Positions 15,968-28,855 of a stretch of 34,041 nt of DNA are shown here, one piece after another; the first letter of the stretch is position 1; each line of letters begins with the position of its first letter. The DNA is from Pseudomonadota bacterium (GTDB lineage: Bacteria > Pseudomonadota > Gammaproteobacteria > Steroidobacterales > Steroidobacteraceae): the NCBI GenBank assembly GCA_018261655.1, contig JAGTSG010000015.1, positions 1-34,041 of the forward strand, given 5' to 3'. The notes under the pieces are model-generated. The model was not told the DNA's origin. It was given only the letters and a program-made list of their open reading frames with translations, and searched no databases. The position numbers were made by a program, and so were the translations under genes.

Positions 15968-16617
15968 GGAGCCCCCGAGTGGAACCGGAACTGCGCATCC
16001 GGTGACGTCGCCAGCCCGGCTTCGGTCCCGGCCAGCGACGCCAGGCGCGCCTCGATGTCGAGCCCATGCCTGTCGGCATGACGGCGCGCCAGCGCCAGGT
16101 ACAGCGTGAAGTGTCGCGCCTCGGATTCCTCGAGGCCACGGTAGAAGGACGCCACCGGCGCCGGCAGGCGCGGCGCGAGGCCGGCGAAACGCTCGCAGGA
16201 TCGCGCCTCGATCAGGGCGCCGCAGAGCAGCAGGTCGAGCCGGCGCGCGGGCTCGCCGGTGGCGACCGCGGCGCGCAGCCCCTCGGCGTAGCGGGAAGGC
16301 TTGAGCCGCCGGTACGGCAGGCCGAGCGACATGAGCAGTTTCTGCACCTGCTCGAAGTGACGCAGTTCCTCGCGCGCCAGCCTCGACAGCTGCCGCGTCA
16401 GCTCGAAGTCGTCGGCGTAGGCGAACATGAGCGCCAGCGCCGTCGAGGCAGCCTTCTTCTCGCAGTTGGCGTGGTCCAGCAGCAGTTCATGCTGGCGCTC
16501 GGCGGCGGCGTCGAACCAGGCCGCCGGCGTGGGCGCCCTGAGGAGTTCCGTCGGGGATTGCGCCGCGGCGCCGCGCCAGGCGGCGTCAGAATCCCATCGC
16601 CTCGCGGTCCGCCTCAT
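15937..16617 (-). CDS. miaE: MiaE, tRNA 2-methylthio-N6-isopentenyladenosine-37 hydroxylase
   Basis: MiaE is a ferritin-like non-haem diiron monooxygenase that hydroxylates ms2i6A37 in tRNAs reading U-starting codons. The 226-residue product has the helical-bundle iron-ligand pattern: NCEKKAAST, REELRHFEQV, ALIEARSCERF and EESEARHFTLYL. The N-terminus has about 20 extra residues relative to homologues as I recall them. No other start is visible, and the ATG lies within the last 32 bases of the upstream kinase gene, which suggests coupled translation. Its stop lies inside lpxH on the other strand. It is the last gene of the purF-glycerate kinase-kinase-miaE run. Confidence 0.9.
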   Translation of the reverse strand: MRRTARRWDSDAAWRGAAAQSPTELLRAPTPAAWFDAAAERQHELLLDHANCEKKAASTALALMFAYADDFELTRQLSRLAREELRHFEQVQKLLMSLGLPYRRLKPSRYAEGLRAAVATGEPARRLDLLLCGALIEARSCERFAGLAPRLPAPVASFYRGLEESEARHFTLYLALARRHADRHGLDIEARLASLAGTEAGLATSPDAQFRFHSGAPQVRGSSSSS

Positions 16618-17860
16618 CCTTTTCCGCTTCCTTCAACGCGTCCACCAGCTGCTCGGCCGAAGAATAGCGGCGGGAGGGATCCTTGGCGATGCAGTTGAAG
16701 ATGATGGACTCGAACCGCTTGAGTTCCGGCCTGAGCTCGGGAAGCGGCGAATGGGCGTGCTTGTAGATGACCTGCATCGGCGTGCCGGCCACGTAAGGCT
16801 TACGCCGCGTCAGCATCTCGTAGAACATGATCCCGAGGCTGTAGAGATCGCTGCGCTCGTCCGTCTCGCGGCCGTGGCCCTGCTCCGGGCTCATGTAGTA
16901 CGGCGTGCCGAAGATCTCTCCGCTGCCGGTGATGTTGGCGTCGAGCTCGAGCTGCTTGGACATCCCGAAGTCGATGAGCACGACCGAGCCGTCCTCGCGC
17001 AGCATCACGTTGCCGGGCTTCAGGTCACGGTGCAGCACGCCGGCGGCATGCAGCGCCAGCAGCGCCTCCGCCATCTGCCGGACCAGGGTCGCTGCCTCGC
17101 GGGGCTTGAGGCCGGACTTGATGCGGGCGCGCAGGTCGCCCTGCGGGAAATATTCCATCGCGATGTAGGCGTAGTCGTCCCCCGCGCCGAAATCGAAGAT
17201 CTTCACGATGTTGGGGTGGCGGATCGCGGAGGCGATCTCGTACTCGCGCAGGAACCGGTCGAAGGTTTCCGCCGCCTTGCCGCCGACCTCCGGCGCCTGG
17301 CGCAGGACCTTGAGGGCGACCTTCTCGCCGGACGAGAGCCGGTCCGCGAGGTAGACCGTCGAGACCGGGCTTTCGGCCAGCTTGCGCACGAACCGGAAGC
17401 CGCGGATGGTCAGGTCGCCAAAACGGCACTGGCGTTCCTCGGCCTCGGTCCCGACGGCCGGCTCGGCCGCGCCGCGCCCCTTGCCCTGGCCGTGGGCCGC
17501 GCGCAATGCGCCGGCGAGCCGCTGGTGATCGATCTTGCGCTTCGACACGCACGCGAACGCGCCCGCCTTGCCGGCCTCGGACTCGGCCTCCGGCGACGGC
17601 TCCGACAGCAGGTACACGATCGGCGGGAAACCGGGTCGCCGCCGCAGGTCCTTCAGCCACTCGAGGCCCGTGCCCGCGCCCGGCTGGTCGTCGAGCAGCA
17701 CCACGTCGTAGCCGGAGGCCTGGAACTCCGCCGGCAGCTTTCCCTTCGTCGCCGGGTCGTACTCGGCGACCGTGGGTGCGTCAAAGGCGGTCGAGACGTG
17801 CTGCGCGAGCAGACGCCGGTAGACCTCTTCGTCGTCGATGACCAGCACGCGCAGGCCCAT
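16586..17860 (-). CDS. Response-regulator receiver domain fused to a Hanks-type Ser/Thr kinase
   Basis: A 424-residue cytoplasmic signalling protein. The N-terminal receiver domain (about 1-120) has the acidic pair D9/D10, phospho-acceptor candidates D57/D58 in VVLLDD, and K107. After a Gly/Ala-rich linker (about 121-145), a eukaryote-like kinase domain (about 152-412) has VALK (K184), HRDLKPGN (277-284), IDFG (DFG 297-299), GTPYYMSPEQ and SDLYSLG. The ATP-binding glycine loop reads KLAESPVSTVYLA, with none of the three usual glycines, though the other catalytic residues are intact. It has no membrane or PASTA segment. The partner histidine kinase and substrates are unknown. It is 9 bases downstream of glycerate kinase and overlaps miaE by 32 bases. 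Confidence 0.92.
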   Translation of the reverse strand: MGLRVLVIDDEEVYRRLLAQHVSTAFDAPTVAEYDPATKGKLPAEFQASGYDVVLLDDQPGAGTGLEWLKDLRRRPGFPPIVYLLSEPSPEAESEAGKAGAFACVSKRKIDHQRLAGALRAAHGQGKGRGAAEPAVGTEAEERQCRFGDLTIRGFRFVRKLAESPVSTVYLADRLSSGEKVALKVLRQAPEVGGKAAETFDRFLREYEIASAIRHPNIVKIFDFGAGDDYAYIAMEYFPQGDLRARIKSGLKPREAATLVRQMAEALLALHAAGVLHRDLKPGNVMLREDGSVVLIDFGMSKQLELDANITGSGEIFGTPYYMSPEQGHGRETDERSDLYSLGIMFYEMLTRRKPYVAGTPMQVIYKHAHSPLPELRPELKRFESIIFNCIAKDPSRRYSSAEQLVDALKEAEKDEADREAMGF

Positions 17861-17872: not shown

Positions 17873-19132
17873 CATACTGGGGGGCCGCCGCGGACTGTGA
17901 CCTTTCTCCCAGCGCAGCGCCAACAGCAGGTCGCCGACGTTGGTCCCGGTATGCCCGGTGTGAACCAGGTCACCACTGGCCTCGAGAAACCGGCCGCTAT
18001 CGGCGCGTTCGAGGCAGGCCGCGGCGTCCAGGCCCGCGTCCCGGCCGCGCTCGATCGTGCCGCCATCGACCAGCGCCCCGGCATCGTCCGTATTGCCGTC
18101 CGTGCCATCGGTCCCGGCCGCGAGCAGCAGCCGGTCGCCGGTACCGGCCAGCGCCTCGGCGGCAGCGAGCGCCAGGTGCTGGTTTCGCCCGCCACGCCCC
18201 GGCCCGGGGGGCAGCACGACGGTCGTCTCGCCGCCCCACAGCCAGAGCCCCGGGGGCCCGCCGGCGAGGTGCTCGCAAACGGATCGTGCCACCTGGACGG
18301 CGGACCCCTCGAGCCGGCCCGCCGGGCGTTCGACCGGGAACCCGGCCGCCGACGCGGCCTGCGCCATGGCCTCGAGGGCCTCGTCGAGGCGTCCCACGCA
18401 GCGCAGCGGAACCGGGGGCGGCACGGGGGACTCGCCGGCGCCGCGCGTTAGCATGGCAGCCAGCCAGCCGGGCAGGCCCGCCGGGTCGAAGGTCGCCGCC
18501 GAGCGCGCCAGCAGTCCCGAGCCGACCACCGCCGGGTCGTCACCGGGCACATCGGAGAGGTAGTAGCCCTCGACGCGACAGTGCCCGACGCGCAGCAGCA
18601 GCCGGCCGTCTTTGAGCTGCGACAGGCGCCGTCGAACCGCGTTGACGCGCTCGATGGACTCGCCGGAGGACAGGGCCCAGGCGGACACGCGCCGCAGGTC
18701 GTCGAGCGACAGGCCTTCCGCCAGCGACTCCACCAGGCTCGAGGCGCCGCCGGACACGAGCAGCAGGACCGGCTGGCCGGGCCGCGCCTCGCGCGTGAAC
18801 TGCAGCGCGGCCGAGCCCGCCGCGAGGCTGCGCGAGTCGGGCACCGGGTGGCCGCCCACCAGGCAGCGCACCCGGGGGTCCTGCTGCAGGCCGGGCCCGA
18901 AGTGACCCTCCCGCGAGATGACCAGCGCGCGCTCGACCCGCGACCCGAGCGCGTCGATCGCGCCGACGGTCATCGCGTCGGCCGCCTTGCCTGCCGCGAG
19001 GATCCAGGCGCGGTCGAGGTCGTGCCGGCCGGCCAGCGCCGCGTGCATGCGGCGGCGGCCGTCCACCGCGGCCAGCCCGGTCTCCAGCAGATCAAGCAGG
19101 AAGTCGCGTCGCGCGTCGCGGGCAGGACGCAC
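17870..19132 (-). CDS. Glycerate 2-kinase (MOFRL / GckA-TtuD type)
   Basis: The enzyme phosphorylates D-glycerate to 2-phosphoglycerate, linking glyoxylate, hydroxypyruvate or tartrate breakdown (and the serine cycle where present) to glycolysis. The product is 420 residues, with the N-terminal domain AAGKAADAM, the glycine-rich LLVSGGASSLVE, and YYLSDVPGDDPAVVGSGL. The C-terminal MOFRL part is GGETTVVLPPGPGRGGRNQHLALAAA and AAGTDGTDGNTDDAGA. It starts with GTG 7 bases after the purF stop, so it is probably in the purF transcript. No glyoxylate carboligase, tartronate reductase or serine-cycle genes are in view, so the source of glycerate is unknown. Confidence 0.93.
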   Translation of the reverse strand: MRPARDARRDFLLDLLETGLAAVDGRRRMHAALAGRHDLDRAWILAAGKAADAMTVGAIDALGSRVERALVISREGHFGPGLQQDPRVRCLVGGHPVPDSRSLAAGSAALQFTREARPGQPVLLLVSGGASSLVESLAEGLSLDDLRRVSAWALSSGESIERVNAVRRRLSQLKDGRLLLRVGHCRVEGYYLSDVPGDDPAVVGSGLLARSAATFDPAGLPGWLAAMLTRGAGESPVPPPVPLRCVGRLDEALEAMAQAASAAGFPVERPAGRLEGSAVQVARSVCEHLAGGPPGLWLWGGETTVVLPPGPGRGGRNQHLALAAAEALAGTGDRLLLAAGTDGTDGNTDDAGALVDGGTIERGRDAGLDAAACLERADSGRFLEASGDLVHTGHTGTNVGDLLLALRWEKGHSPRRPPSM

Positions 19133-21906: not shown

Positions 21907-23196
21907 CTAGCCTTCCGCGGCATCGAGGCCGAGCCATTCGAGCGCGGGGCCCACCGTGTGGAACGAACCGAAGACGACGACGCGATCGCCGTCGCGCGCG
22001 AGGTCGCGGGCCAGGGCAAGGCCGCCGGCCACGTCGGCGGCCTGCTGCACGGACTTGCCGATCGCCTGCCCGAGGCGCCCGGCCAGCGCCGCAGCGTCGA
22101 GCGCCCGCGGGCCACCGACGCCGACGGCGATCCATTCGTCCACCCCGGGCGACATCTCGCGCGCCACGCCGGCCACATCCTTGTCGGCGAGCATCCCGCA
22201 GACCGCCAGCGTCCGGCCCCGGCATGACCGCATTGCGAGGCTGCGGGCGAGCACGCGGGCCGCGTCCCGGTTGTGGGCGACGTCGAGGATCCACTCGGGC
22301 GGCCCCGGGACGACCTGGAACCGGCCGGCGAGCCGCGCGCGGGCGAGCCCGGACTTCACCGCGTCGTCGGGAACCAGCAGGCCGGGCTCGGCCGCCTCGA
22401 GCACCGCCAGCGCGGTGGCCGCATTGCCGAGCTGGGCCGCGCCGCCGATCGCAGGCAGCGGCAGTTCGGCGCGCCGCGATCCGGTCCCTACGTAGTCCCA
22501 GCCGTCGGGCCGCTCGACGAAGTCGAAGTCGATGCCCAGCCGCCTGAGCCGGGCGCCGACCGCCGAGGCCACGGCGGCCACGGACCACGGCATCTGCCGG
22601 TCGCCAAACACGGCCGGGCGGCCCTGGCGGAAGATCCCGGCCTTCTCGCGGCCGATCTCGTCGACGGTGTCGCCCAGCCACTCGCAATGGTCGAGCGCAA
22701 CGGAGACCACCGCCGCGACGTCCGCGTCGACCGCGTTCACCGCGTCCAGCCGGCCACCGAGGCCGACCTCGAGCACCGCCACGTCGAGACCGGCGCCCTC
22801 GAGGATCGAGAAGGCGGCCAGCGCATTCCACTCGAAGAAGGTCAGGCTGGTTTCGCCGCGGGCCGCGTCGATGCGCGCGAAGGCCGCGACGAGGTCCGCA
22901 TCGTCAACCGGCCGGCCGCCGATGCGGATGCGCTCGTTGTACCGGACCAGGTGGGGCGAGGTGAAGCATCCCGCTGCGAAACCCGCCTGGCGCAGGATCG
23001 CATCGAGATAGGCCACGACCGATCCCTTGCCGTTGGTGCCGCCGACGGTGAGCACGATGCCGGCCGGTCGCCCGAGCCCCATCCGTCCGAGCACGTGGTG
23101 GACGCGCTCGAGGCCCAGGTCGATGGCCTTCGGATGCAGCGACTGCTGCCAGTCGAGCCAGTCCTGCAGCGATTCGAATCGCAAGCCCGGGCTCAC
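21907..23196 (-). CDS. folC: Folylpolyglutamate synthase / dihydrofolate synthase
   Basis: FolC adds glutamate to dihydropteroate and to reduced folates, making and retaining the cofactors used by FolD and Fhs. The product is 429 residues (E. coli 422). The P-loop is [11 protein letters not shown] (about 46-56). Other motifs are [46 protein letters not shown] and the Mur-ligase-like [12 protein letters not shown]. The GTG start overlaps the accD stop by four bases (GTGA), so translation is coupled. The accD-folC-dedD order is the gammaproteobacterial standard. Confidence 0.97.
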
Positions 23197-24056
23197 TCGC
23201 GGGCCGGCGGGACCTTCATCAGGATCGCCAGCAGTCCGGCAATCCGGTCGCGCAGGTCGCGTCGGTCGACGATCATGTCGATGGCGCCGTGCTCCAGCAG
23301 GAACTCGCTGCGCTGGAAGCCCTCGGGCAGCGTCTCGCGCACCGTCTGTGCGATGACCCGCGGGCCGGCGAAGCCGATCAGCGCCTTGGGCTCGGCGATG
23401 TTGACGTCACCTAACATCGCGAGGCTCGCCGAGACGCCGCCGGTGGTCGGGTCCGTCAGCACCGAGACGAAGGGCAACCGCTCGCGGGCGAGCGCGGCCA
23501 GGGAGGCGCTGGTCTTCGCCATCTGCATCAGCGAGAGCAGCCCTTCCTGCATGCGCGCGCCGCCGCTCGAGGAAAAGCACACCAGCGGTGTGCGGTGACG
23601 GATGCAGTGCTCGACCGCCTGCACGAAGCGCTCGCCGACGACCGAGCCCATGGAGCCGCCGAGGAAGGCAAACTCGAAGGCCGCGGCGACGACGTCCATG
23701 CCCTTGAGGCGCCCGGCCATGACGACCAGCGCGTCGCTCTCGCCGGTGCCTTTCTGCGCGGCCGTGAGGCGGTCCCGGTAACGCTTGGTGTCGCGGAACT
23801 TGAGCGGGTCCTCGGGCGACACATTCGCCGCCAGCTCGGTGCCGCTGTCGGGGTCGAGGAAGCGGACCAGCCGGTCGCGCGCGCCGATCCGCATGTGGTG
23901 CGAGCACTTGGGGCAGACTTGCAGGTTGCGCTCCACCTCGGGACGGTAGAGCACGGCGTCGCAGGTCGGGCACTTCATCCACAGCCCTTCCGGCACCGAA
24001 CGCGTGCGGCGCTCGGTCTTGATCCGCGACGGGATGATCTTCTCGAACCAGGTCAT
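23193..24056 (-). CDS. accD: Acetyl-CoA carboxylase carboxyltransferase subunit beta
   Basis: With AccA it moves the carboxyl group from biotin to acetyl-CoA, giving malonyl-CoA for fatty-acid synthesis. The product is 287 residues. The N-terminal zinc ribbon has C29, C32, C48 and C51. The crotonase-like core shows [43 protein letters not shown] and GFAGPRVI. It starts 19 bases after truA. In Pseudomonas and Xanthomonas trpF (and sometimes trpBA) lies between truA and accD; here there is no room for it. Confidence 0.98.
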
Positions 24057-24075: not shown

Positions 24076-24891
24076 TCATGCGCCGGCGATCATGGCCGAC
24101 GCGGCGGGATCCGCAGCCGGCAGGCCGAAGTGGCGAGGATACTCGATACGCAGGAAGTACAGCCCCCCGGCCGGCGCGGTGATCCCGGCCGCGCGGCGGT
24201 CCCGGCCGGCGAGCGCCTCGGCGACCCACGCACGCGGCCGGTCGCCGCGGCCCACGGCAATCAGGGTGCCGGCGATGTTGCGCACCATGTGGTGCAGGAA
24301 GGCGTTGGCGGTGACCTCGATCGTCACGCGGTCCGCGTCGCGGCCGACGGCAATGCGGTCCAGCCGCCGCACGGCGGTCCGGGACTGGCACTCCGAGGCG
24401 CGAAACGCCGAGAAATCGTGCTCGCCCAGCAGGCACTGCGCGGCGTCGTGCATTGCGGCCTCGTCGAGCGGCTCGTGGACCCAGCACGCGCGCTGCCGCG
24501 CCAGCGCGGGCCGCACGGCGCGGTTCTGGATCACGTAGCGATAGCTGCGCGCGAGCGCGGAGTGGCGGGCGTGAAACTCCCCGGGCACCTGGACGGCCCA
24601 CAGGACGGCGATGTCGGGAGGCAGGGCGGTGTTGGCGCCGAGCGCCCAGCCGCGCATGGAGCGCCGGGCGGTCGAGTCGAAGTGGGCCACCTGGCCGAGC
24701 GCGTGCACGCCCGCGTCGGTCCGGCCGCCGCAGGTGGCCTCGACCGGATGGTCGGCGACCGCACCGAGGGCGCGTTCGACCTCGGCCTGGACGGAGGGGG
24801 CATCCGCCTGCCGTTGCCATCCGGCAAAACGGCGGCCGTCGTACTCGATGCCGACGGCGATGCGCTGCTGCACCGGGTCGCGGGTGTTCAT
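24076..24891 (-). CDS. truA: tRNA pseudouridine(38-40) synthase
   Basis: TruA converts uridines 38-40 in the anticodon arm to pseudouridine. The product is 271 residues (E. coli 270). The catalytic aspartate is D59 in [10 protein letters not shown]. Further family motifs are [37 protein letters not shown] and [15 protein letters not shown]. It starts 43 bases after fimV, the conserved order. Together with MiaE it is one of two anticodon-arm modification enzymes in the window. Confidence 0.98.
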
Positions 24892-24934: not shown

Positions 24935-27502
24935 TCAGGCGCCGGGCAACGAGTCGAGCAGGCGCTTCGCCTCCTGCTTCTGGGACGCGCTGCCCTCCTT
25001 GAGGACCTCCTCGAGGATGCTGCGTGCGCCGTCCGGGTCGCCCATGTCCACGTAGGCCCGCGCCAGGTCGAGCTTGGTGCCGACCTCCGACATCGTCACC
25101 GGCTCGAGCTCCGACATCTGCGGCAGCTCGTCGAGCGAGATCTGCTCGGTCGCGGTGAACTCGCCCGCCTTGTCCTCGAAGGCGCGGCCCACGTCCACGA
25201 TCTGCGTAACTTCCTCCGTGCCGGCCGCCGACACTTCGGGCGACAGCTCGGTCAGGTCGAAGTCCATGCCCGCCTCGCCCGCCGGCATCCGGCGGGTCGC
25301 CTCGTCCGCAGGCGCGATCCGCGTGACATCGTCCTCCGGGGCGTCGCCCGACAGGGCGTCCAGGTCCCCGAGATCGATGCCGAGGTCGTCCATGGCCAGC
25401 TCGGCGGTCGCATCCGGCGACACCGGCTGCATCTGCGTGGCTTCCATGGTCGGCATCTCGGCGGTGTCGTCGCCGACGCGCGGCATCTTCGCCGTGGGCA
25501 TCTCTGCCGTCTTCGCGCCCGGCTGCAGCATCTCGACCGTCGGCGCCGATCCCTGGGAGTCGAGGTCGAAATCCAGGACCTCGGCCTCGCCGGTCTCCGC
25601 CTCGGAATCCGACGCCTCCAGCGCCTCGCCCAGATCGAGGTCGATGCCATCCTCGCCGCCCGGGGGCGTCAGCAGCTCCAGGTCGACGAGGCTGTCGCCA
25701 CCCTCGAGGTTCAGGTCCAGGCCGCCGCCTGCGGCAGCACCTTCGAACAACGGATCTTCCGGCGCCAGCTGGCGACCCATGATCAGCACGCGGTCCCAGT
25801 CGGCCGCGTCGCCGTCACCGCGCCTCGACGCGGCCTTGCGCGCGGCCTCGAGGAAATGCGCCTTGTCGCCCGAGACGAAGAAGATCTCGAGCAACTTCAG
25901 CTCGTAGTCGCGGCGGCCGGGTTCCCGCTCCAGCCCGAGCCGGATGATGTCGGCGGCCTGGTCATACAGGCCGTAGGCCATGTGGAAGTCCGCCTCGGCC
26001 AGCGGATCGCCCTTGTCGAGGTCGGTCGCCGCTTCGCTGCTGAGCGTGTCCTCGAAGGAGACGCCGAGGTCCCGCGCCGTCCGGCCCGACGGCGGGAGCG
26101 TCGACGTGCGGAAGTCCTCGAGTTCCTGTTCCTCGGTCGTGGTGCCGACCACCATGCCCGTTCCGGACAGCGCGCGCAGGCGCTGCGTCTCCGACGGGAC
26201 GGGGGCGGAAACCGGCGGTTCGAAGCTGCGGATCGAGTCGTCGAACTCCTCCTCGCGGCGCCGGCGCACGAAGCCATAGGCCAGGCCGCCGCCGAGCAGC
26301 AACACGGCTGCACCGAGCACGTACTGCCAGTTGTCCGTCAGGCTGTCGACGAAGGACCGTTCCGGCTCGGTCTCCTGGGGGGCCGCTTCCGCGGGCGCGG
26401 GTTCAGGTGGTGCCGGGGCTTCGGCCGGGGCCGGTTCGGCCGGCGCGGCTGGCGCCGGGGCCGCCGCTTCAGGCTCCGCGGCTGGCGCCTCGGCCGGCGC
26501 CTGGGCAGCCGCGGCTTCCTGTGCCGCCTGCTGCTGGAGTTGCGCCAGCTCCTGGCTCTTCAGTTCGAGCAGCCGGCGGGACTCCTCGATCTCGCGATTC
26601 AACTGCTCGATGCGCCCGGCCGCATCGGTGGTGGCCGGCTCGGGTTGCGCGGCGGCCGGCGCCGACTCGGTCGGCGTGACCAGCCTGAGCCGCGCGGGCT
26701 CCTGCGCGGGCTGCTCGCCGCGCCACGCCGCCGTCTGCCGGCCGATCTCGCTCGCCGCTTCACCGGCGCCGACCTCGGCCAGCGACTCCGGCCCCGGGAC
26801 CCGCAGGATCGCGCCGGAGCGCAGCACGTTGATGTTGCCGCCGAATGCCTCCGGGTTGGCCCGGTACATCGCGATCATCATCCGGTTGGTTTCGCTGCGG
26901 CCGCCGCCGCTGAACTGCGAGGCAACGCCGTACAGCGTATCGCCCCGCTGCACGCGGTACGTCGATGGGGTCTCGCCCGAGGGCGCCGCCGGCTGCGCCG
27001 CCGCGACAGCCTCGGCCGGCGCCGCGGCGGGCGCAGGAGCGGCTGCCGGTTCCTGGCGCGCCGTCCGCGGCGCCGCCACCGGCGCGGGCGGCGCGGCTTC
27101 CTGAGGGGCGAACACGGGCGGATCGAGCAGCACCGTGTACTCGCGCAGCAGGCGGCCACGCGGCCAGGTGACCTCAACCACGAACGTGACGAACGGCTCG
27201 CTGATGGGTGCCGCCGAACTCACCAGCAGGACGTTGCGCCCGTCGCGCCCGCGGCCGACGGAAAACTGCACGGTATCGAGGTAGGCCGGGCGGTCGAGCC
27301 CGAGGCGCTGGAACAGTTCGCGCGACGCCAGCTGGGCGGACAGCGAGCCGAGTTCGTCGCTCGTCGGCGCGACCAGCTCGATCTCTGCGGAAAGCGGCTC
27401 ATTCAGGGCCGAGCCGAGGCGAATGTCGCCGAGACCCAGTGAGAAAGCGGCCTGCGGCGCGAGCAAAAGCGCCGACACTGCGGCGCGAAGTTTCCAGCTC
27501 AT
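24935..27502 (-). CDS. fimV: FimV-like peptidoglycan-binding polar hub protein
   Basis: FimV/TspA organises the cell pole and promotes type IV pilus secretin assembly and twitching in Pseudomonas. The 855-residue product has a signal peptide (about 1-21), a periplasmic N-terminal FimV domain (LGLGDIRLGSALNEPLSAEIEL, 22-130), a Pro/Ala linker, a LysM domain (about 181-236, YRVQRGDTLYGVASQF), a coiled coil (about 294-330), an Ala/Pro/Glu repeat (331-378) and one membrane helix (391-412). A long acidic cytoplasmic region with helical repeats follows, ending in the FimV C-terminal TPR-like domain (about 795-855). The ATG at 27502 follows GGGAG at 5 bases. The fimV-truA pairing supports the name. 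No pilus genes are in view. Confidence 0.94.
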   Translation of the reverse strand: MSWKLRAAVSALLLAPQAAFSLGLGDIRLGSALNEPLSAEIELVAPTSDELGSLSAQLASRELFQRLGLDRPAYLDTVQFSVGRGRDGRNVLLVSSAAPISEPFVTFVVEVTWPRGRLLREYTVLLDPPVFAPQEAAPPAPVAAPRTARQEPAAAPAPAAAPAEAVAAAQPAAPSGETPSTYRVQRGDTLYGVASQFSGGGRSETNRMMIAMYRANPEAFGGNINVLRSGAILRVPGPESLAEVGAGEAASEIGRQTAAWRGEQPAQEPARLRLVTPTESAPAAAQPEPATTDAAGRIEQLNREIEESRRLLELKSQELAQLQQQAAQEAAAAQAPAEAPAAEPEAAAPAPAAPAEPAPAEAPAPPEPAPAEAAPQETEPERSFVDSLTDNWQYVLGAAVLLLGGGLAYGFVRRRREEEFDDSIRSFEPPVSAPVPSETQRLRALSGTGMVVGTTTEEQELEDFRTSTLPPSGRTARDLGVSFEDTLSSEAATDLDKGDPLAEADFHMAYGLYDQAADIIRLGLEREPGRRDYELKLLEIFFVSGDKAHFLEAARKAASRRGDGDAADWDRVLIMGRQLAPEDPLFEGAAAGGGLDLNLEGGDSLVDLELLTPPGGEDGIDLDLGEALEASDSEAETGEAEVLDFDLDSQGSAPTVEMLQPGAKTAEMPTAKMPRVGDDTAEMPTMEATQMQPVSPDATAELAMDDLGIDLGDLDALSGDAPEDDVTRIAPADEATRRMPAGEAGMDFDLTELSPEVSAAGTEEVTQIVDVGRAFEDKAGEFTATEQISLDELPQMSELEPVTMSEVGTKLDLARAYVDMGDPDGARSILEEVLKEGSASQKQEAKRLLDSLPGA

Positions 27503-27560
27503 CGTGGCTCCCGAACGGACATCGCCCGACCCCAAGAATGGTCCCGGACAGGCCAAACCG

Positions 27561-27578
27561 TTGTGAAATCAATCACAA
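27561..27578. promoter_or_regulatory. CRP/Vfr-type operator in the fimV leader
   Basis: TTGTGA-N6-TCACAA is a perfect inverted repeat containing the full CRP core TGTGA-N6-TCACA, and it is conspicuous as an AT-rich site in GC-rich DNA. Its centre (27569.5) lies 67 bases before the fimV ATG. Relative to the promoter at 27595-27623 it falls inside the early transcript. Relative to a weaker downstream -10 (CATTCT, 27535-27540) it would be centred near -41.5, the class II activator position. Confidence 0.6.
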
Positions 27579-27594
27579 GTCCCTGATCCAGCGG

Positions 27595-27623
27595 ACTATA
27601 GCCTACCCTCGTCCATTTACCAA
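27595..27623 (-). promoter_or_regulatory. Sigma-70 promoter for fimV-truA-accD
   Basis: Minus-strand TTGGTA (27618-27623), a 17-base spacer, then TATAGT (27595-27600, 5 of 6). The inferred start is about 85 bases before the fimV ATG. It lies in the 135-base gap after the MFS gene, which otherwise holds only the CRP-type palindrome. Confidence 0.6.
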
Positions 27624-27637
27624 AATCTGGCCGGGCG

Positions 27638-28855
27638 TCACGGATTCTGCACGCGATCCTGCGACGCCGGCAGCCCCCGGAGACCCACGATAGCCAGCAG
27701 CGCGGCCGCCATGGCAAGTCCCGCGCCGGCCAGGAAGGCGGCTGCGGGCGAAACCTCGCTAAAAAGCCAGCCGCTGCCGATCGCGCCTGCCATGCCGCCC
27801 AGTCCATAACCGACGCTGCCGTGGAGTGCCTGGCCGCGGGCCGCGGCGCCGCTGGGGAAGAGCCGCCCGGCCAGCGCCACCGAGCACAGGTGGAACAACC
27901 CGAAGCTGGCGAGGTGCAGCGTCTGCGCGGCGAAGACGACCCCGATCAGGGCGGGCCACAGGGCCAGCATCACCCAGCGTAGCGCCGTCACGGTCAGCGC
28001 CGTCACCATCAGCGTCCTGAGAGTGAATCGCGCGAGCAGGCGCCGCGCCGCCAGGAAGACGCCGATCTCCGCGATCACCGCCCAGGCCCACAACAGCCCG
28101 ATGGTGGTCCGGCCGTACCCGACCGCCGCGAGGTGGATCGAGAAGAAGTTGTAGTAGGCGCCGTGGCTGGCGACCATCAGGAAGGCGACCACGAGGAACA
28201 CGCGGACCCGCCGGTCCGCCAGCAGGCGGGCGAGACGAGGCGACGGCTCGCCGGCCTGCCTGACCGGCCCGCGGTCCGGCCCGCGCAGGGTGTTCCAGGT
28301 CAGGGCGATCAACGCGACGAGCAGCCACGGCAGCGCATCGAGCCCGGCCAGGTCGAGGACCCTGCCAGCCGTCACGGCCAGCACGATGAACCCGATCGAG
28401 CCCCACAGCCGCAGTGTCCCGTAGCGCCCCGAGTCCGCGCCGGCCCGCTCGAGCACGTGCGCGTCGTAGACGGACATGACGCCATTCCACGCCGCGCTGT
28501 AGAGCGCCAGCGGAATCACGAACGACCAGGCCGTGTCGAGCCAGGCGAATGACAGCGCGCAGCACAGCGCGACGAGCGCCGCCGCGCGTAACAGGGCCAG
28601 CCGGCGCCCCGACATGTCGGCCCAGTGCGCATAGACGGGCGGCACGACGACCCGCATCGCGGCGGCAGCGCCCATGAGCAGGCCGATCTCGACCGGGTCG
28701 AGGCCGCGCATGGCGAGGAACGGCGGCCAGTACGGGACCATCAGGCCCACGGTCGAGAAGTACCAGAAGTACCCCTGGGCGAGGCGTCGCCGCTCGGCGC
28801 TCGCGGCCGGGAGCCCCGGTCCTGCGCCCGCACCGGGCGCGCGCTGCGGGAACAA
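27638..28855 (-). CDS. Major facilitator superfamily transporter (MFS_1-like / HcaT-type)
   Basis: A twelve-helix inner-membrane transporter of 405 residues, substrate unknown. Visible features are GYFWYFSTVGLMVPYWPPFLAMRGLDPVEIGLLMG in helix 1 and its loop, and WADMSGRR as the helix 2-3 loop. The central cytoplasmic loop is about 195-210. The start YFSTVGLMVPYWPPFL is typical of the 3-phenylpropionate transporter-like family. The gene follows aroC in Pseudomonas as well, where it is also uncharacterised. The start appears to be TTG at 28855, 9 bases after aroC, behind a weak TAGGT; a later start is possible because the first 20 residues are not family-like. Confidence 0.85.
   Translation of the reverse strand: MFPQRAPGAGAGPGLPAASAERRRLAQGYFWYFSTVGLMVPYWPPFLAMRGLDPVEIGLLMGAAAAMRVVVPPVYAHWADMSGRRLALLRAAALVALCCALSFAWLDTAWSFVIPLALYSAAWNGVMSVYDAHVLERAGADSGRYGTLRLWGSIGFIVLAVTAGRVLDLAGLDALPWLLVALIALTWNTLRGPDRGPVRQAGEPSPRLARLLADRRVRVFLVVAFLMVASHGAYYNFFSIHLAAVGYGRTTIGLLWAWAVIAEIGVFLAARRLLARFTLRTLMVTALTVTALRWVMLALWPALIGVVFAAQTLHLASFGLFHLCSVALAGRLFPSGAAARGQALHGSVGYGLGGMAGAIGSGWLFSEVSPAAAFLAGAGLAMAAALLAIVGLRGLPASQDRVQNP

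Follow-up and report, generated by a model that had tools for sequence, protein, structure and literature searches.

The window, by which we mean the whole stretch of 34,041 nucleotides that was analysed, carries on its minus strand the gene fimV (24935–27502, with the ATG at 27502), which encodes an 855-residue polar landmark protein of the FimV/HubP family (TIGR03504, TIGR03505, FimV_N) and is followed on the same strand by truA (24076–24891, TIGR00071 over cut-off), accD (23193–24056, TIGR00515 over cut-off) and folC (21907–23196, NF008101 and TIGR01499 over cut-off). These genes are closely packed, with 43 bp separating fimV from truA, 19 bp separating truA from accD and a 4-bp overlap between accD and folC; one terminator-like place lies inside accD. 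Upstream of fimV, also on the minus strand, there is an MFS transporter gene (27638–28855), and the 135-bp gap between the two contains a probable CRP-type operator, TTGTGATTGATTTCACAA as read on the fimV strand (27561–27578, minus strand, centre at 27569.5). The TTGTGA-N6-TCACAA palindrome claimed by the earlier note is present there as TTGTGAAATCAATCACAA on the plus strand, with all six pairs of arm bases complementary, and it includes an exact copy of the TGTGA-N6-TCACA core by which CRP sites are recognised. The GC-rich surroundings that had been emphasised hold for the window (71.5% GC), but the 135-bp gap itself has only 57.8% GC.

The 12-base form occurs a single time in the 2,218,414-base draft genome (74.6% complete), with three further places when two mismatches are allowed. 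The 10-base core, searched with at most one mismatch, gave 11 matches in this genome against 1 for a reversed control pattern, and the fimV-leader site is the only exact one among the 11. In the other five members of the genus the corresponding counts were 12 v 6, 25 v 7, 10 v 3, 21 v 4 and 13 v 10, so that the genome-wide enrichment is uneven, the excess ranging from at least threefold to 13 against 10. Among 20,000 dinucleotide shuffles of the 135-bp gap the 12-base form never arose, and the core arose once. A chance origin of the palindrome was considered and is ruled out by its uniqueness in the genome, by the shuffles and by the conservation described below.

Conservation was assessed in the Steroidobacteraceae, a placement that follows from the record titles of named relatives (SG8_30, Ww125, Prado184, Povalibacter, Steroidobacter). 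Of the 150 genomes of the family, themselves a selection from a larger group, 136 gave a fimV match. The leader set comprised 130 leaders from 129 genomes, with G002 contributing two copies, and left out G097, G111, G048, G137, G065, G099 and G088, whose matches were truncated or weak, together with the second copies in G033, G115, G029 and G050. Leaders were scanned over 160 nt from the start (L096 is shorter than that), the start codons being set by script, with those of genus g14 unsure. The earlier note had staked its proposal on the palindrome recurring in the fimV leaders of relatives, and it does recur: the core is found with at most one mismatch in 19 of the 130 leaders and exactly in 14, compared with means of 0.42 (maximum 2) and 0.01 (maximum 1), respectively, in 100 shuffled leader sets. 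The carriers fall into six of 24 genera, namely g1, to which the genome of the window belongs (4/5 leaders), g9 (5/5), g25 (1/1), g14 (3/3), g24 (5/13, leaving eight leaders without the site) and g12 (1/1, with one mismatch), while the remaining 18 genera contribute 102 leaders and no match.

Ten close leaders, defined as those of g1 without G084, g9 and g25, were compared base by base. All six bases of the left arm and four of six in the right arm are invariant (10 of 12 arm bases in total), as opposed to none of the six in the N6 spacer and none of the next 43 downstream. Fixed arms combined with a free spacer and a free downstream sequence, here in orthologous leaders, are the mark of a protein-binding DNA site. 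It has to be noted that the outermost base, the A that follows TCACA, is A in just two of the 18 distinct carrier rows, which indicates selection on TTGTGA-N6-TCAC(A/G) and not on the perfect 12-base palindrome. The statement that every position matches the CRP consensus is accordingly exact for the window and overstates the conserved part. The palindrome in the fimV leader is real, and the case for it is stronger than had been stated at the outset.

The history of the site was followed on a tree of FimV N-termini from 53 of the 130 leaders (129 columns), on which the site label changes eight times, three of these changes being forced by well-supported branches; either a single origin followed by losses or repeated gain may account for this pattern. 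Beyond the family, seven of 80 named loci (L168–L173 and L181) had the core, with one mismatch allowed, at the usual position; they look like the g1, g9 and g24 carriers themselves or genomes closely related to them. An exact 19-base pattern, GACTTGTGA-N6-TCAC, was matched in seven of 147 genomes of the order, with the two matches inside the family (G000 and G008) lying beside fimV and the five outside it lying elsewhere. The palindrome has been kept by evolution in part of the Steroidobacteraceae, and its lineage-limited distribution supplies natural pairs of leaders with and without the site. Separately, a locus from a Sedimenticola MAG (L241) has an exact TGTGA-N6-TCACA at -213 from fimV.

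A protein able to read such a site is encoded in the same genome. The earlier note had made the presence of a CRP-family gene decisive for its proposal, and a CRP/Vfr orthologue was found on contig C26 (L002), whose best matches among solved structures are catabolite gene activator/CRP entries, followed by Vfr. In an alignment of 206 residues it shares 116 with E. coli CRP and keeps R169, Q170, R180, E181 and R185 (E. coli CRP residues), which read TGTGA. It likewise keeps G71, E72, R82, S83 and T127, and has N in place of S128, a residue of the cAMP pocket. Its activating surfaces are also preserved, as class II activation would require, with AR1 retained at 8/9 positions, all acidic residues of AR3 kept, and R-R-E-R in AR2 in place of H-H-E-K. 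The residue ranges used for AR1 and AR3 were those given in PMC4693257. Orthologues of this protein (E <= 1e-40) occur in 138 of the 150 family genomes, at 99% identity in three members of the genus and 91–92% in the other two.

On these grounds it is predicted from the sequence, with considerable confidence, that the palindrome is bound by CRP. A different member of the CRP/FNR family might in principle be the reader, for instance the second such protein of this genome (L007 1195–3207, minus strand, contig C109), whose recognition helix is CRP-like and also shows R-E-x-x-x-R. That protein occurs, however, in only 10 of 150 family genomes (E <= 1e-30), against 138 for the CRP orthologue, and among the site carriers it is confined to g1 and g25 genomes, being missing in g9, g14, g12 and the five g24 carriers; as a rarity of this kind it is an unlikely reader for a site that has been conserved in those lineages, and a reader other than CRP is considered very improbable.

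Class III nucleotide cyclase domains were detected in all six genomes of the genus, with three matches in the present one, as were PilT-family proteins above the model cut-off (six of six). One locus (L250 1036–2079) encodes a 347-residue fusion of a glyoxalase domain and a class III nucleotide cyclase domain. The cyclase CyaB carries a MASE2 domain, and no MASE2-type membrane cyclase (PF05230) was found in the six genus genomes, which are drafts of 66–96% completeness, so that these genomes lend no support to a FimV-CyaB-cAMP-Vfr loop that runs by way of a CyaB-like enzyme.

The placement of the site would allow it to shift fimV from one transcription start to another. The strong promoter that had been noticed upstream was recovered as P1, TTGGTA-17-TATAGT at 27623–27595 on the minus strand, and is the sole promoter-like match in 27400–27800. 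Its -35 hexamer TTGGTA (27618–27623) is invariant in all six columns across the ten close leaders, and its -10 hexamer TATAGT (27595–27600), separated from it by a 17-bp spacer, in four of six, with one leader deviating; the corresponding start would lie near 27588. From the end of the P1 -10 to the palindrome centre there are 25 bp in eight of the ten close leaders and 26 and 27 bp in the other two, which puts the centre at about +19.5 of P1 when the start is taken 7 nt after the -10. For the eight carriers of g24 and g14 the same distance amounts to 44 to 52 bp, i.e., the site is 19 to 27 bp farther from P1 than in the close leaders, and still downstream of it. The divergent g1 leader of G084 (FimV identity 60%) keeps GATCAGGCACTTGTG and is missing both the palindrome and the P1 hexamers.

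The location of P1 has a history of its own. Many relatives have asd as the gene immediately preceding fimV, as in Povalibacter (L176), where the gene order is MFS-asd-fimV, and in relatives with asd the P1 -35 sits within the last codons of that gene (EILVK or QILVN), with the stop a few codons on, adjoining the -10. No asd was found between the MFS gene and fimV in g1, yet CAGATTTTGGTAAAT (27615–27629, minus strand), a remnant of the last asd codons that spells QILVN in the old frame, persists there and contains the -35. A tail-like motif is similarly kept in the five g9 and several g24 leaders, with no asd match in the available upstream stretch. Judged by these comparisons, the P1 -35 is evidently what is left of the 3' end of an asd gene that has been lost, and that precisely this piece was kept argues for P1 being in use; it also suggests how a promoter buried in the end of a gene can outlive the gene.

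Between P1 and the operator, directly 5' of the latter and at about +1 to +10 of the P1 transcript, lies a conserved block (27579–27588, minus strand; GATCAGGGAC, also given as GATCAGNGAC) with seven of its ten columns invariant in the ten close leaders. An ATCAG-N-GAC-like motif is also present in g24, g14 and g12 leaders, and in g24 and g14 the block is preceded, about 15 bp upstream, by a second GACTTGNGA-like copy. The GATCAGNGAC block is not explained by CRP. Two candidates for it were rejected: GGA, the core of a CsrA/RsmA-type motif, is missing from the block in G058, G024 and four of the five g24 carriers, and a symmetric partner that would make GATCA-N8-TGATC occurs in two g9 leaders and is not kept elsewhere. 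Farther downstream, within the first fimV codons, there is a terminator-like hairpin followed by TTTTGC (window 27469–27486, minus strand); terminator-like matches number 2 in 401 bases against 0.5 expected.

Since the putative P1 transcript contains both arms, which can pair with one another, the inverted repeat could alternatively act as an RNA stem-loop in the fimV leader, and the centroid fold does show a 5-bp stem. The folding z-score of the leader is nevertheless -0.15, among the 18 distinct rows 13 have a broken outer pair and none shows a pair changed on both sides, and arms that are fixed in sequence are what a DNA operator predicts, all of which makes an RNA element extremely improbable.

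On its other side the palindrome faces a possible -10 box, CATTCT (27535–27540, minus strand), which begins 21 nt after TCACA and would specify a second start, P2, near 27528. With that start taken 7 nt after the box, the palindrome centre falls at -41.5, the spacing of a class II CRP site. A NANNNT hexamer lies 21 or 22 nt after the right arm in each of the ten close leaders, the highest count of 43 offset pairs, the next being 6 (for a neighbouring pair) and 5 (at offset 9), although the ten leaders share ancestry and the positional peak does not represent ten independent events. The boxes are weak: CATTCT has three of the six TATAAT bases, hexamers at the fixed offsets 21 and 22 average 1.6–1.7 matches of 6, and offset 26 scores higher, at 2.2. 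None of the eight carriers in g24 and g14 has such a hexamer at this spacing. The geometry proposed by the earlier note, a site inside the P1 transcript and near -41.5 of a second candidate -10, holds at the level of sequence and recurs in the ten close leaders, with the reservation that its second box is weak and does not extend to g24 or g14. P2 is put forward as a hypothesis for the g1/g9/g25 branch only.

What is known of E. coli CRP gives both positions a precedent. PMC5772556 describes PredCRP rules by which E. coli sites from +2 to +70.5 (rule R1, the downstream part of which rests on five sites) and from -31 to 23 (rule R2) are repressors; the fimV site, at about +19.5 as reckoned from the P1 hexamers and a putative start, would lie within the first of these ranges, though the rules are derived from few downstream sites in E. 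coli and are transferred here. In the gal operon, according to PMC4693257, cAMP-CRP acting from one site activates P1 and represses P2. The arrangement deduced for fimV would resemble gal in that one CRP site would serve as a class II activator (about -41.5) of one start and a repressor of another; it differs in that the gal starts are 5 bp apart and those of fimV about 60 bp, and in that the repressed start of fimV would lie upstream of the site.

The best reading, which is offered tentatively, is that cAMP-CRP blocks P1 and, in the g1/g9/g25 branch, activates P2, in the manner of a gal-like switch. In this model the operator would be read by the CRP/Vfr orthologue of the genome, and at high cAMP a CRP dimer at about +19.5 of P1 would block promoter clearance or early elongation. 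In g1, g9 and g25 the same bound dimer, at about -41.5 of the weak second -10, would recruit RNA polymerase as a class II activator, so that cAMP, instead of simply switching the gene on or off, would make its transcription begin at P2, with a short leader, and no longer at P1, with a long one; the closely packed truA-accD-folC genes may follow the switch. Several observations weigh against this model: the P2 boxes are weak and offset 26 scores higher, the ten leaders are related by descent, the g24 and g14 carriers have no box at this spacing and a site farther from P1, S128 of the cAMP pocket is replaced by N, G084 has neither palindrome nor P1 hexamers, eight of 13 g24 leaders are without the site, and the GATCAGNGAC block is left unexplained by CRP. 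The main rival holds that CRP only represses, blocking P1 from downstream, and that the box at 27540–27535 is accidental, with no second promoter. It fits the carriers of both groups, because all 18 carriers from g1, g9, g25, g24 and g14 have a P1-like -10 upstream of the site, the eight g24/g14 carriers lack a box at class II spacing, and rules R1 and R2 (PMC5772556) tie such positions to repression in E. coli. Against it, the NANNNT hexamer is kept at 21/22 nt in 10/10 leaders that share not one invariant base across the 43 columns downstream, and the CRP protein retains its AR1, AR2-like and AR3 surfaces; repression alone is accordingly judged somewhat unlikely.

The converse possibility, that P2 is the working promoter, activated by CRP, and P1 of little weight, agrees with the class II spacing in all ten close leaders and with the activation by Vfr of the pilus-related fimU and algZ promoters in P. 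aeruginosa (PMC8787478). It is difficult to reconcile with a P1 -35 that is as invariant as the left operator arm (six of six each) and was kept after the surrounding asd had been lost, or with P2 boxes that are weak and absent in g24/g14, and is regarded as improbable. The interpretation given in the earlier note stands as far as the sequence can carry it, and a switch between P1 and P2 is the preferred, tentative form of it.

In a broader form, fimV would stand directly under cAMP in part of the Steroidobacteraceae, with a single operator flipping two starts, the upstream promoter being a scrap of the deleted asd, and the loop would be closed if FimV raises cAMP as in P. aeruginosa; taken as a whole this is a doubtful proposition. 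In P. aeruginosa, FimV acts upstream of cAMP, according to PMC6855561, and a vfr mutant microarray lists fimV among the altered genes, in a passage of PMC8787478 that gives neither the direction nor the directness of the effect. PMC6610081 reports five transcription factors at the P. aeruginosa fimV promoter by ChIP-seq. The P. aeruginosa system, as described in PMC8787478, has in common with the present one an orthologue of CRP/Vfr and a target that belongs to the biology of the polar pilus; a difference is that the fimU site deviates in its downstream half, whereas the fimV core here is exact. If fimV of a second lineage does carry an operator bound directly by CRP, the FimV-cAMP circuit would be closed transcriptionally, and a single fusion to the leader would suffice to test the sign of the FimV-cAMP feedback.

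The available portions of open-licence PMC papers on fimV with Vfr, CRP, Clp, asd and start sites contained no mention of a CRP operator in the fimV leader, nor was a paper in that collection found to join fimV, asd and a transcription start site, and PMC12552656 yielded no passage on the fimV promoter; as the search was limited to open-licence PMC, seen in part, it is weak evidence of novelty. As a target of a regulator of a known kind, fimV would be new, with a site unusually placed between two candidate starts.

The earlier note had advised looking for the same palindrome before other pole or pilus genes; no pilus gene was recognised beside the 11 sites with at most one mismatch, the neighbours outside the window being judged by eye. 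A frame-composition script placed four of nine of these sites, the fimV site included, in intergenic DNA; the other two, both in the window, lie within an ORF. One CRP-like site with one mismatch lies between an S4-domain-like gene and small ORFs (L267 ~1480, G000 C99:17279), and an exact one occupies the same intergenic place in G058 (L158 ~1501, C151:50088; genes judged by eye). Inside the window, TGTGAACCAGGTCACC at 17959–17974 is located near the 3' end of a DUF4147/MOFRL gene and ahead, by about 100 bp, of a response regulator-kinase ORF (16586–17860); similar sites occur at G073 C19:3018 and G058 C66:72, and the TGTGAACCAGGTCACC pattern may reflect coding constraint.
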